A program made the position numbers and the translations under genes. Of a DNA stretch of 59,710 nucleotides, positions 6,628 to 51,999 are shown in pieces. This stretch comes from Thalassotalea sp. 42_200_T64. Its GTDB lineage: Bacteria; Pseudomonadota; Gammaproteobacteria; Enterobacterales; Alteromonadaceae. The notes below the pieces were generated by a model. That model saw only the letters and a program-made list of their open reading frames with translations. It ran no database searches and had not been told where the DNA came from. Position 1 is the first letter of the stretch. The number at the start of each line of letters is the position of its first letter. The stretch spans positions 1 through 59,710 of the forward strand of contig MABC01000026.1 of assembly GCA_002162925.1 (NCBI GenBank), in the 5' to 3' direction.

Positions 6628-8904
6628 TTAAAAATTAGCGGTAAAGGTCATCGATGCCGTACGAGGTGAACCAATAAAGAAACTTGTGCCATTACCTGTA
6701 CCGGTTGATAAATATTTTTCATCGGTAATATTGGTAATAACGAAAGCGATATCAATTGAGTTGATCGCAGCACTGTCAAAGGCGACAGAGTAACCTGCGT
6801 TGATGTCGAAAACTGTGTAAGATGGTGCATCACCACGTTCACCGGTATATTTGCCCGATGCGCCGACACGGAAATCACCTTTACTATAATCGGTAGATAA
6901 GACAAACATATCATCAACTGAGTCAGTAACTTTATCGCCTGCCGCAAAACCAGGGGCATCGCCAACATAACGAGAATCGTTATTAGTATAAGAAGAATAA
7001 ATGTTCCACTGCTCATTCAAACGGTAATTTAAACTTAATTCAAATCCGTCTGATTCAATCCCACCAACATTAAGGTAAGAGCCATTGGTACCAATACTGT
7101 AATCAATGCCGTCGGCTTCACTACCAGGGGCAATGAAAGTGATTCTGTTTTCAAAGTCAATGGTGTAGTAAGTGGCGGAAAAGTCAATATTACTGTTGCT
7201 ATAGCGTAAACCTAAATCAATATTTTCCGCAGTTTCAGGTTCGATCTGTTCAAGGGCAGAAGCATCACGTTCTAAAACGCCATCTTTTATTGCGGCGAAA
7301 TTTTCACTGTAACCGGCAAATAATTCTATATTCGCATTTAACTGATAAATGCCGCCTATGCTAAAGAGTAGATCAGAATCACTGTTTACCTTGCCCATTT
7401 TCTGGCCTGAGAAGACATCCGTTTTTTCAATGTCAACGAGATACTTTTGCGCGCCAGCATTAATCGATAGGTCACCAAAATCAACAGTATCTTGTACATA
7501 AAGTTTTAAGGTGTCAGTTTGAAATTCATTACTGTATTGGGTCCAATAAGGCGTTGAATCAAAATGATGGTAAACACGGGCATCAACGACTTTATGCCAA
7601 TCTCTAGACTCTTTTCGCTCATTAGATTCGGCCCATAAGCCAAATTGAATGTCGTTCATTGCGATAGTCCATTGAGCATCTACGGTCAGACCTAAACGAT
7701 TTTTTTCATAATGAGTATGGCGGTAAGACATTACGGGTACAGCACTATCGCTATAACATGCAGGGTGTAATCCCGGACCTGAATTCCATGGCCAGGTAAA
7801 GCTTTGGTTACAATTTTCTTGTGGCGCTAATGGTGTGCCATTTTGATCGGTAAATCCATACTTAGAATCAATCGAACCACCTTCATTAACGGGATTCCCT
7901 TCAGCATCAACCGCAGCCACCAAATATGGTGGGATCCAATCGCCGCGGCCTTTGTTTTTGTGGTAATAAGGGGTCACTTGAAAAGATGAATTGCTAGATA
8001 ATTGATAATCAAATTTTAAGTAGCCTAAAGTATTTTCACGTAAGGTTGACCAACCCTCAGCAAACATTTGATCAAAATGTGGAGTGCCGGTCCAGTTCCA
8101 GGTAAGTTGGTCCCAATCCGGGGTTTGATTAAATTGCTCAATGCTGACCGAGTTGTAATTATCTTCATCGGCATCATCATAAGATAAACGACCGGTAATG
8201 CTTAAATTGCCTAATTCAGAAATAAATTTAAGCTCAGCATGTTCTCTTTGCATGCCACCGTTTGAACCTTTTCCCACCCAACGGCTAGTCGACGTTGATG
8301 AATAGCTCATGTAGGCATAAGTATTTTCAAAAATACGCCCGGTATCGTGGCGAATAAAATAACGAGATGCGTCATGATCACCATTGGTATAGGCGATTTT
8401 TGTTGTCTCTTCAAATGCCGGGTCAGCGCTGACAAAATTAAATGTGCCACCAAGTGCCTCAAGAGAAGCCGATGAAATATCAGATGTACCCTGTGACACT
8501 TCAATGGTGCCCATGTTTTCACTGTCTAAATAGCGGTTCGCTTTAGCACCGCCACCATAGTTAGAACCACCGTTTGGAATACCATCAATCGTCATTCCCA
8601 GTTGTTGCTGGTTACCGTCAATGGTGAAGCCGCGCATGGTAATTGACGTAGACCAGTCATCACCACCAAAGGCATCACCTTCATTGATACTAATGCCAGG
8701 TAAATTGTCCATTATCGCGAGTACACTGCTGACAGAAGATTGTTGTTTGACCATGGATGGTGCAATGACATGATTGGCATGTGATAACTTTTTCGCTACC
8801 ACCGTCACTTCTTCTATCACATTCTCGCTATCATCAGCAAAAGCCGATACCGGTAATGAAAGCGCCGAGGATATCGCTAATGCAATGAGGGTTTTTGTAG
8901 ACAT
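6628..8904 (-). CDS. TonB-dependent outer-membrane receptor of a Pho-controlled cluster
   Basis: This 758-residue protein has a signal peptide (about 1-23, ending VSAFA), a TonB box-like segment IEEVTVVAKK at about 29-38, a plug domain to roughly residue 160 (DNLPGISINEGDAFGG, MRGFTIDGNQQQLGMTIDG) and a 22-strand-type barrel ending in a C-terminal Phe. The ribosome-binding site is AGGAAAG. It would import a substrate across the outer membrane using TonB energy. The clustering with phosphatases and a Pho box array at its promoter suggest a phosphorus-containing ligand, an organophosphate, nucleotide or phosphate complex. This is inferred from context, not from the receptor sequence. Confidence 0.88.
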   Translation of the reverse strand: MSTKTLIALAISSALSLPVSAFADDSENVIEEVTVVAKKLSHANHVIAPSMVKQQSSVSSVLAIMDNLPGISINEGDAFGGDDWSTSITMRGFTIDGNQQQLGMTIDGIPNGGSNYGGGAKANRYLDSENMGTIEVSQGTSDISSASLEALGGTFNFVSADPAFEETTKIAYTNGDHDASRYFIRHDTGRIFENTYAYMSYSSTSTSRWVGKGSNGGMQREHAELKFISELGNLSITGRLSYDDADEDNYNSVSIEQFNQTPDWDQLTWNWTGTPHFDQMFAEGWSTLRENTLGYLKFDYQLSSNSSFQVTPYYHKNKGRGDWIPPYLVAAVDAEGNPVNEGGSIDSKYGFTDQNGTPLAPQENCNQSFTWPWNSGPGLHPACYSDSAVPVMSYRHTHYEKNRLGLTVDAQWTIAMNDIQFGLWAESNERKESRDWHKVVDARVYHHFDSTPYWTQYSNEFQTDTLKLYVQDTVDFGDLSINAGAQKYLVDIEKTDVFSGQKMGKVNSDSDLLFSIGGIYQLNANIELFAGYSENFAAIKDGVLERDASALEQIEPETAENIDLGLRYSNSNIDFSATYYTIDFENRITFIAPGSEADGIDYSIGTNGSYLNVGGIESDGFELSLNYRLNEQWNIYSSYTNNDSRYVGDAPGFAAGDKVTDSVDDMFVLSTDYSKGDFRVGASGKYTGERGDAPSYTVFDINAGYSVAFDSAAINSIDIAFVITNITDEKYLSTGTGNGTSFFIGSPRTASMTFTANF

Positions 8905-8943: not shown

Positions 8944-8949
8944 AGTATG
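8944..8949 (-). promoter_or_regulatory. Putative -10 element of the receptor operon
   Basis: CATACT on the minus strand lies exactly 10 nt downstream of the last Pho half-site, the same spacing as at the divergent phoA-like promoter. No good -35 is present, as expected for a PhoB-activated promoter. Confidence 0.5.
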
Positions 8950-8959
8950 CTTAACGTTT

Positions 8960-9021
8960 ATGACAAATTACTGACTTAACTGTGACGGTTTAATGATAAA
9001 ACCGTTACATATTTTTTACAG
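8960..9021 (-). promoter_or_regulatory. Pho box array: six half-sites phased at 11 bp
   Basis: Minus-strand heptamers at exact 11-bp steps: CTGTAAA (9021-9015), ATGTAAC (9010-9004), TTATCAT (8999-8993), CCGTCAC (8988-8982), AAGTCAG (8977-8971), TTGTCAT (8966-8960). The PhoB consensus is direct repeats of CTGTCAT or CTGTAAC separated by 4 bp, which is an 11-bp period. Six in a row would hold three PhoB dimers upstream of the receptor operon. Confidence 0.85.
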
Positions 9022-9097: not shown

Positions 9098-9139
9098 ATT
9101 TTGCATGACGACAACTTTTAAGGTGTCGTCATGCAAAAT
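9098..9139. repeat. Perfect 16-bp inverted repeat between the two Pho promoters
   Basis: ATTTTGCATGACGACA and its exact complement flank a 10-nt loop, right after a run of seven G (9091-9097). It lies between the receptor-side Pho array and the phoA-side Pho box. It could act as an insulator or terminator between divergent units, or bind another protein. Confidence 0.75.
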
Positions 9140-9149
9140 TTCATTACTT

Positions 9150-9183
9150 TTGTCTTATTTCTGTAAAGTCGTTCGGTTATTCT
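9150..9183 (+). promoter_or_regulatory. Pho box and -10 of the phoA-like gene
   Basis: TTGTCTT (9150-9156) and CTGTAAA (9161-9167) are separated by 4 bp, matching an 18-bp Pho box. The -10 candidate TATTCT (9178-9183) follows 10 nt later, as at classical PhoB-activated promoters. Transcription should begin near 9190 and read into the phosphatase gene at 9229. Confidence 0.75.
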
Positions 9184-46570: not shown

Positions 46571-46701
46571 TGGTTGGCGGGGTTTAAACCTCGCGTAGTT
46601 AGCGGGAATTTTAACCTCGCATTGGTTAGCGGAGTTAAAACCTAGCTTATGGTTGGCGGGGTTTTAACCTCGCATTAGTTAGCGGAATATCAACCTAGCT
46701 T
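46571..46701. repeat. GTTGGCGGG palindromic repeat, locus 2: five tandem units
   Basis: Five degenerate units of about 25-28 bp follow each other, for example GGTTGGCGGGGTTTAAACCT-CGCG then TAGTTAGCGGGAATTTTAAC-CTCGC. Each unit is itself near-palindromic (GCGGGGTTTAAACCTCGC). The array fills the gap between convergent mutT and the DUF3465 gene. It is not CRISPR: there are no spacers. Confidence 0.8.
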
Positions 46702-46703
46702 AA

Positions 46704-47240
46704 TTACTGATACTTAAGCCCGGCATATCTTAAATAACCATTAGGATGAGAGCCATCAGGATCATGGTGAGTCCAATGCACCACACCACCTTTATCATTC
46801 CACTCATACACCCCATAAAACTCAATATCATCACCTTTACGCAACGACTTAATTCTATCGGCAATATTGATATTATGAGCTATCAGCAATGATTGATTAT
46901 TGGCAAGCTTGAGAATAAAGCGCTGATGACGACTGCCGACATTGTCATCAGGTAACATTTTTAAAACTCTACCAGAACCTAAAACCTGAATGTTTGATAA
47001 ACGATTCTGGTAAGCAAAGGCTATTTTCTCTAATCCCGAATAGGTATCAATATCTAGGTTTGGGTTAACTTCATGATCTAGGGAAACAAAGGCTTGCGCT
47101 AACAACTCATCAGAAGAAGTATTTTCAGTAAAAGCGATAACTTCTTCGGGTTCGGCTGACGTGCTATTTTCAATAGCATCTCGTTTTAAATAAACTAGGC
47201 CGGCAAGAAGCACTATTAAAGCAAAAAATATATTTCTCAT
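46704..47240 (-). CDS. DUF3465-family membrane-anchored protein
   Basis: This 178-residue protein has an N-terminal helix (IFFALIVLLAGLVYL), a low-complexity acidic linker (about 25-55) and a C-terminal domain from about 70. The core GSGRVLKMLPDDNVGSRHQ, then LLIAHNINIADRI, DDIEFYGVYEWNDKGGVVHW and THHDPDGSHPNGYLRYAG, matches the DUF3465 pattern known from Vibrio and relatives. The fold resembles an OB-like domain. Function unknown. The conserved His and Asp (SRHQ, HWTHHDPDG) could bind metal, though that is speculative. Confidence 0.75.
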   Translation of the reverse strand: MRNIFFALIVLLAGLVYLKRDAIENSTSAEPEEVIAFTENTSSDELLAQAFVSLDHEVNPNLDIDTYSGLEKIAFAYQNRLSNIQVLGSGRVLKMLPDDNVGSRHQRFILKLANNQSLLIAHNINIADRIKSLRKGDDIEFYGVYEWNDKGGVVHWTHHDPDGSHPNGYLRYAGLKYQ

Positions 47241-51924: not shown

Positions 51925-51999
51925 GCTTACTACTTACTGCTTACTGCTTACTGCTTACTGCTTACCACTTACCACTTACCACTTACCACTTACCACTTA
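51925..51999. repeat. Heptamer tandem repeat (CTTACTG / CTTACCA)
   Basis: About ten head-to-tail 7-bp units: GCTTACTA then four CTTACTG-type units, then about five CTTACCA-type units. It is intergenic, between pilC and pilD. Copy number would be expected to vary between strains by slippage. Confidence 0.9.

Follow-up and report, generated by a model that had tools for sequence, protein, structure and literature searches.

The locus raises the question of what a run of six 11-bp repeats in front of a receptor gene may do, and whether a run of this length stands apart from other phosphate-responsive promoters. The repeats occupy 66 bp of the window, that is, the whole stretch of DNA analyzed (59,710 nucleotides from Thalassotalea sp. 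42_200_T64). We consider it probable, at about 0.8, that PhoB uses these 66 bp as the operator from which it controls a phosphate-starvation operon, which encodes an outer-membrane TonB receptor and two phosphoesterases. This reading was reached by sequence comparison and is favored because of the six in-phase half-sites, the spacing of the -10 element, the presence of a PhoB orthologue and the in-phase excess of half-sites in related promoters.

An earlier note on this DNA had reported six Pho half-sites in a single 11-bp phase on the minus strand, and both the cores and the matrix scores agree with this description. The plus-strand cores at 8961, 8972, 8983, 8994, 9005 and 9016 are TGAC, TGAC, TGAC, TGAT, TTAC and TTAC respectively. 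In the minus-strand direction, 9021 to 8956, the units follow one another as CTGTAAAAAAT ATGTAACGGTT TTATCATTAAA CCGTCACAGTT AAGTCAGTAAT TTGTCATAAAC, then GTTAAG and then CATACT, and the distance from the end of the array to the start codon of the TonB receptor is 51 nt (Table 1). In a PhoB promoter the final half-site replaces the -35 element and the -10 element follows 10 nt after the last heptamer. CATACT at 8949-8944 was confirmed from the sequence to lie at exactly this distance, as had been claimed, and half-site 6 stands where a -35 element would be expected. The same spacing is visible by eye at the E. coli phoA and phoB promoters and was found in 31 out of 31 phoB promoters from the bacterial family of the window organism.

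Table 1. Predicted features of the array of Pho half-sites and of the genes around it (positions in the window).
Feature	Position	Strand	Score or basis
Six Pho (PhoB) half-sites in one 11-bp phase, predicted to be the operator controlling the TonB receptor, phosphodiesterase and PhoD genes	8956..9021	-	matrix, simulation, relatives
Half-site 1, CTGTAAAAAAT, farthest from the promoter	9011..9021	-	5.1 bits
Half-site 2, ATGTAACGGTT	9000..9010	-	7.4 bits
Half-site 3, TTATCATTAAA	8989..8999	-	3.2 bits
Half-site 4, CCGTCACAGTT	8978..8988	-	7.9 bits
Half-site 5, AAGTCAGTAAT, weak	8967..8977	-	0.8 bits
Half-site 6, TTGTCATAAAC, promoter-proximal, at the place of the -35 element	8956..8966	-	9.5 bits
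Candidate -10 element CATACT	8949-8944 (8944..8949)	-	exactly 10 nt past the last heptamer
First operon gene: outer-membrane TonB-dependent receptor with Plug and beta-barrel domains, 758 aa	6628..8904	-	
Type I phosphodiesterase / nucleotide pyrophosphatase family protein, 393 aa	5397..6578	-	Pfam, gene order
PhoD-like phosphatase, 355 aa	4330..5397	-	Pfam; weak match to alkaline phosphatase D 2yeq; gene order
Divergent alkaline phosphatase, 548 aa, PF00245	9229..10875	+	best solved matches alkaline phosphatases, e.g. 6qsq, 3e2d
Putative weak Pho box with two half-sites for the divergent phosphatase, TTGTCTTATTT (2.9 bits) and CTGTAAAGTCG (4.3 bits)	9150..9171	+	matrix

The heptamers were scored with a matrix derived from 59 ChIP-seq sites of E. 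coli PhoB, comprising 118 heptamers (PMC10294691 Table 1). The six units sum to 33.9 bits, and the array was taken to be six units long because the next units outside it score only -4.9 and -4.5 bits. These are tandem CTGTCAT-related heptamers with an 11-bp period, as in a Pho box promoter, five of them scoring between 3.2 and 9.5 bits and one 0.8 bits, and with more than four half-sites in phase, namely six, the array has the make-up of a long Pho operator such as that of ugpB. Among the E. coli PhoB ChIP half-sites, half-site 5 ranks at the 2.5th percentile; the remaining units range from the 12.7th to the 93.2nd. Ordinary scores for four of the six heptamers had been named in the earlier note as evidence against its claim; when the matrix was run, only one heptamer proved poor, which leaves the claim standing. 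Removal of the sites of seven known Pho genes from the matrix changed the scores little (5.0, 7.6, 3.4, 7.8, 1.1 and 9.4 from upstream to the promoter).

A chance origin of the array was ruled out by simulation, by a partial genome scan and by a comparison of related promoters with control pieces. No six-unit sum of 33.9 or more arose in 38.8 million positions of simulated first-order Markov sequence, in which the maximum was 20.3. A ranking of phased sites with a PhoB matrix had been proposed beforehand, and the array ranks first within the 457,484 bases of its own genome that were scanned (about 13%, window included; the sample consists of the window and 20 stretches and is non-random, as some contigs were picked for earlier matches). 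The runner-up arrays in this sample score 29.3, 26.6, 25.6 and 23.1, and 14 arrays reach a score of at least 15 as against 6 in the reversed sequence (reversed maximum 18.5). An exact genome-wide search for three phased GTMA cores returned 9 places, the array included, and the reversed pattern returned 3.

The repeats might also be incidental to an intrinsic terminator or some other hairpin. A scan did find a stem at 8981-9009, with arms that are 86% complementary and with TATTTTTT following on the plus strand, but zero plus-strand ORFs of at least 100 aa end between 4037 and the stem, and the stem itself joins half-sites 2 and 4. In addition, one related locus (L002, read by eye) loses the complementarity yet keeps the 11-bp phase. 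We regard a hairpin as extremely improbable, and the terminator was rejected on the stem analysis, read against this one relative.

The array had been said to precede a TonB receptor and two phosphatases, and the Pfam assignments bear this out with a receptor, a member of the type I phosphodiesterase family and a PhoD-like protein, taken as phosphate-acquisition genes that the array would control. Nineteen of 20 wide regions, hand-chosen among the matches, have the receptor, phosphodiesterase and PhoD genes in this same order. Within 2.5-kb flanks of 75 named relative loci, the phosphodiesterase was found in 46 and PhoD in 53, while none of the searched neighbor genes was found in 19 of the 75; the gene set is therefore not universal. 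PDB sequence searches with the receptor and with the phosphodiesterase gave no match at the thresholds set. The receptor (6628-8904) was not found in 14 genomes of the same genus at E <= 1e-50, whereas its Colwellia counterparts are 71-88% identical to it. This pattern suggests that the receptor operon may have been inherited patchily or transferred horizontally.

On the divergent side, a candidate -10 element (TATTCT, 9178-9183, plus strand) was located by eye 10 nt past the last heptamer of the possible Pho box of the alkaline phosphatase. Between the two divergent promoters there is an inverted repeat at 9098-9139 (20 nt, 95% complementary, 2 nt between the arms), the 14-nt core of which has no other exact copy in the genome assembly, which is 87% complete. 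Two tandem repeats, both essentially between ORFs, were observed elsewhere in the window: 10.6 copies of the 7-bp unit CTTACCA at 51926-51999 and 2.6 copies of a 53-bp unit at 46571-46706.

The genome contains a PhoB orthologue. One protein exceeds the cut-off of the PhoB model TIGR02154 (C40:18258-18935, 359 bits); its identity to E. coli PhoB is 70% across 227 residues, and VYVEDRTVDVHIRRLRK, which we take to be the DNA-contacting stretch, is identical in the two proteins. The same ChIP matrix finds Pho boxes of two units at phoB and pstS of this genome. Besides this PhoB, the genome has nine or more proteins that match the PhoB model at near-full length, and the array might be used by another regulator of the OmpR/PhoB family. 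The motif, however, is that of the E. coli PhoB ChIP sites, the matrix that finds it also matches the organism's own phoB and pstS promoters, the DNA-contacting stretch is kept in its PhoB, and the genes concerned are phosphoesterases and a receptor. Another regulator is judged very unlikely; it was rejected on the PhoB-model matches and on the likeness of the organism's PhoB to that of E. coli.

Conservation was assessed in the 75 receptor loci from named genomes, whose proteins share 32-88% identity; the loci come chiefly from Colwellia, Pseudoalteromonas, Thalassotalea and Rheinheimera, with a few from remoter groups. The threshold was the 99th percentile of scores from 2,214 control pieces; the upstream phased array exceeds it in 65 of the loci and does not in ten. 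When periods of 7 to 16 were compared, 11 alone was raised, with a mean best sum of 17.1 as against 9.0 to 9.8. A promoter was anchored where a half-site reaches 4.5 bits or more and is followed, exactly 10 nt past the heptamer, by xAxxxT; such an anchor is present in 62 of the 75 relatives and missing from 13, and the next best spacer is found in 29 of the 75. CATACT is the commonest -10 candidate, with 32 occurrences among the 62 anchored loci.

Dereplication of the anchored loci (less than 80% identity over 122 bp, window excluded) left 45, in which the fractions of half-sites of at least 2.83 bits are 1.0 (by selection), 0.16, 0.56, 0.44, 0.40 and 0.58 at positions 1 to 6 from the promoter and 0.13, 0.04 and 0 at positions 7 to 9, as against 0.013 off phase. 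The related promoters hold the six positions in phase more often than off phase, which agrees with the elements being Pho half-sites in one phase; the loci share descent, and the position-test (Wilcoxon) values overstate their independence. The second position is weak in most relatives, matching half-site 5 of the window. Taken over all relatives, the pattern fades after six positions. For the length counts, 49 anchored dereplicated receptor promoters including that of the window were used, and the best-prefix length is exactly six in 20 of them and spans 1 to 8 in the other 29. In the close Colwellia loci L029, L030 and L097 (87% protein identity), a score near -5 is found at two of the six positions.

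These figures bear on a shorter operator, in which function would be confined to the two to four half-sites nearest the promoter and the others would be remnants or AT-rich chance matches. The low scores of half-sites 5 and 3, the two half-sites at phoB and four at most pstS promoters of the same family, and the exact count of six in just two-fifths of the receptor promoters are all in keeping with a shorter operator. The two outermost units, on the other hand, have scores that at most 0.5% of window positions reach, and the fifth and sixth positions are held in phase in the relatives far above the off-phase level. A shorter operator is considered rather unlikely.

If the 66 bp are the PhoB operator, PhoB~P would bind head-to-tail along them when phosphate is limiting, and the array would most likely take up to three dimers. 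Loading would begin at the stronger upstream sites and would cooperatively draw PhoB~P onto the promoter-proximal pair, the inner half-site of which is weak; in this way occupancy would pass across the weak fifth unit and reach the sixth, which is strong. PhoB at the sixth unit would then replace the -35 element and recruit RNA polymerase to CATACT. At any one level of PhoB~P, the main effect of the additional sites would be higher occupancy, and having more of them may bring earlier or fuller occupancy rather than steepness; the very sharp phosphate switch suggested in the earlier note is so far a conjecture.

Operator length was compared across promoter classes. The loci for phoB, pstS, DUF3450, lipoprotein and porin genes were the best 30 per search (for phoB plus that of the own genome) and there were 20 PhoX loci in all; dereplication was carried out at 80% identity and unanchored loci were dropped from the length counts. 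In the phoB promoters of the family the fractions are 1.0 and 1.0, followed by 0 and 0, with 30 of 30 dereplicated loci anchored. The pstS promoters give 1.0, 0.37, 0.67 and 0.74, then 0.07 and 0 (27 loci, promoter-proximal anchor), with a weak second position and a length of exactly four in 20 of 29. The promoter-proximal anchor was adopted for pstS after the best-score anchor had misplaced some loci; with the latter, four half-sites are counted in 9 of 29 and two in 17 of 29, the arrays appearing shorter because this anchor can settle on an upstream unit. By the same matrix in E. coli, phoA and phoE have two half-sites, phoB three (the third at 0.2 bits) and phnC four.

Promoters of DUF3450-led TonB energizer operons have four half-sites in 25 of 27 anchored loci, and such an operon looks like a phosphate-controlled energizer for TonB receptors. 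The genome itself holds a DUF3450-type/ExbB/ExbB/ExbD/TonB/TPR-type operon behind four Pho half-sites (C40:31024-36387, equivalent to L063:11024-16387; genes named by eye). The lipoprotein-like gene promoters have six half-sites in 15 of 30 loci and two in 12, and in the own genome a seven-unit phased Pho array precedes genes for a 939-aa lipoprotein-like and a 903-aa receptor-like protein (C40:24780-30569, equivalent to L063:4780-10569; proteins named by eye). Two half-sites were found in 23 of 25 anchored porin promoters, 3 of the 28 dereplicated loci being unanchored. A porin-like gene between pstS and phoB has, at L062:17102-17175, a proximal two-unit Pho box and, further upstream, five phased half-sites that are out of phase with this box and partly overlap it. 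Among the 17 anchored PhoX promoters (L296-L315; 3 of 20 unanchored), there are five half-sites in 8, seven in 2, six in 3, four in 1, eight in 1 and one in 2; the anchor rule missed a four-unit site that was read by eye at the own genome's PhoX.

Even lengths make up 28 of 30 at phoB, 26 of 29 at pstS, 26 of 27 at DUF3450, 27 of 30 at the lipoprotein, 23 of 25 at the porin and 29 of 49 at the receptor. Lengths of 2, 4 and 6 prevail in six of the seven classes, weakly in the receptor class. Once these lengths had been noticed, even numbers only were predicted for two fresh classes before they were scored, and the outcome weakened such a rule, which is not claimed: the porins agreed, and PhoX failed, with 5 even lengths, 10 odd lengths of three or more and 2 of one among its 17 anchored loci. 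With five as the commonest length, PhoX is ill-suited to a strict dimer rule; the number of dimers is for this reason likely but no more, and the filling of six units by three PhoB dimers, as put forward in the earlier note, is plausible. Removal of the known Pho genes from the matrix leaves the length counts standing, and at periods of 10 and 12 the arrays shrink to one or two units, in one case to three.

Judging from these comparisons, Pho operator length tends to be kept promoter by promoter, with six at the long end but not alone. It can tentatively be proposed, with confidence well short of even for the proposal as a whole, that in this marine family each Pho promoter inherits its own operator length, equivalent to between one and three PhoB dimers, with two half-sites at the phoB and porin promoters, four at most pstS promoters and the TonB energizer, and six at the receptor operon and one lipoprotein set. 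Under the same proposal the inherited length would encode the order or strength of induction in phosphate starvation, and the outer sites would load first with the weak second position acting as a relay. One regulator in one bacterial family is found with two half-sites at phoB as against about six at the receptor operon, and a possible effect of added half-site pairs on the phosphate threshold, the maximum or the steepness becomes testable. The natural related promoters with two, four and six sites form a ready series for asking what added PhoB sites do.

Among known long Pho operators, E. coli ugpB resembles the array in having 11-bp half-sites in phase with a matrix sum of 32.3 as against 33.9 in the window, a candidate -10 element (CATGTT, by eye) 10 nt past the last heptamer and a weak second unit from the promoter (-1.9). 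It differs in having seven phased units, two of them negative, and in driving a glycerol-phosphate ABC transporter. The ugpB promoter is bound and activated by PhoB, with a ChIP score of 35, which is among the two highest (pstS, 38), but a wild-type/delta-phoB expression ratio of only about 19 as against about 770 for pstS (PMC10294691 Table 1). The excerpts of PMC4415409 describe 'multiple PHO boxes' at ugp together with a second, CRP-type promoter, by which the comparison of expression between ugpB and pstS is confounded. E. coli pstS shares the phase, with units of 9.5, 9.5, 3.6, 9.0 and 2.8, and also the weak second unit if the 9.0 unit is promoter-proximal (TATTTT 10 nt after it, by eye). 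Unlike the array of six, it has four half-sites up to the 9.0 unit, and the fifth given by the matrix overlaps the spacer.

No published six-site Pho operator before an operon of this kind was found in the open-access literature, searched by listed entries and the opening lines of abstracts. The Streptomyces coelicolor pitH2 promoter is like the array in its six 11-nt repeat units: in the excerpts of PMC7866108, a 64-nt PhoP footprint covers four core and two ancillary direct repeat units, and the core repeats are protected at lower PhoP concentration. It is unlike the array in that PhoP and not PhoB is the regulator, the consensus is another one, the promoter is actinobacterial and a different gene is controlled. 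Head-to-tail binding of PhoB to 11-bp direct repeats is described in the excerpts of PMC4415409, and tandem recognition of the Pho box differs from the array in involving two half-sites only. The view that most known Pho boxes have two to four half-sites holds for most E. coli promoters scored here; six, on the other hand, has precedents in ugpB with seven and pitH2 with six. Six-unit Pho operators are already a known kind, and the array in the window is longer than usual.
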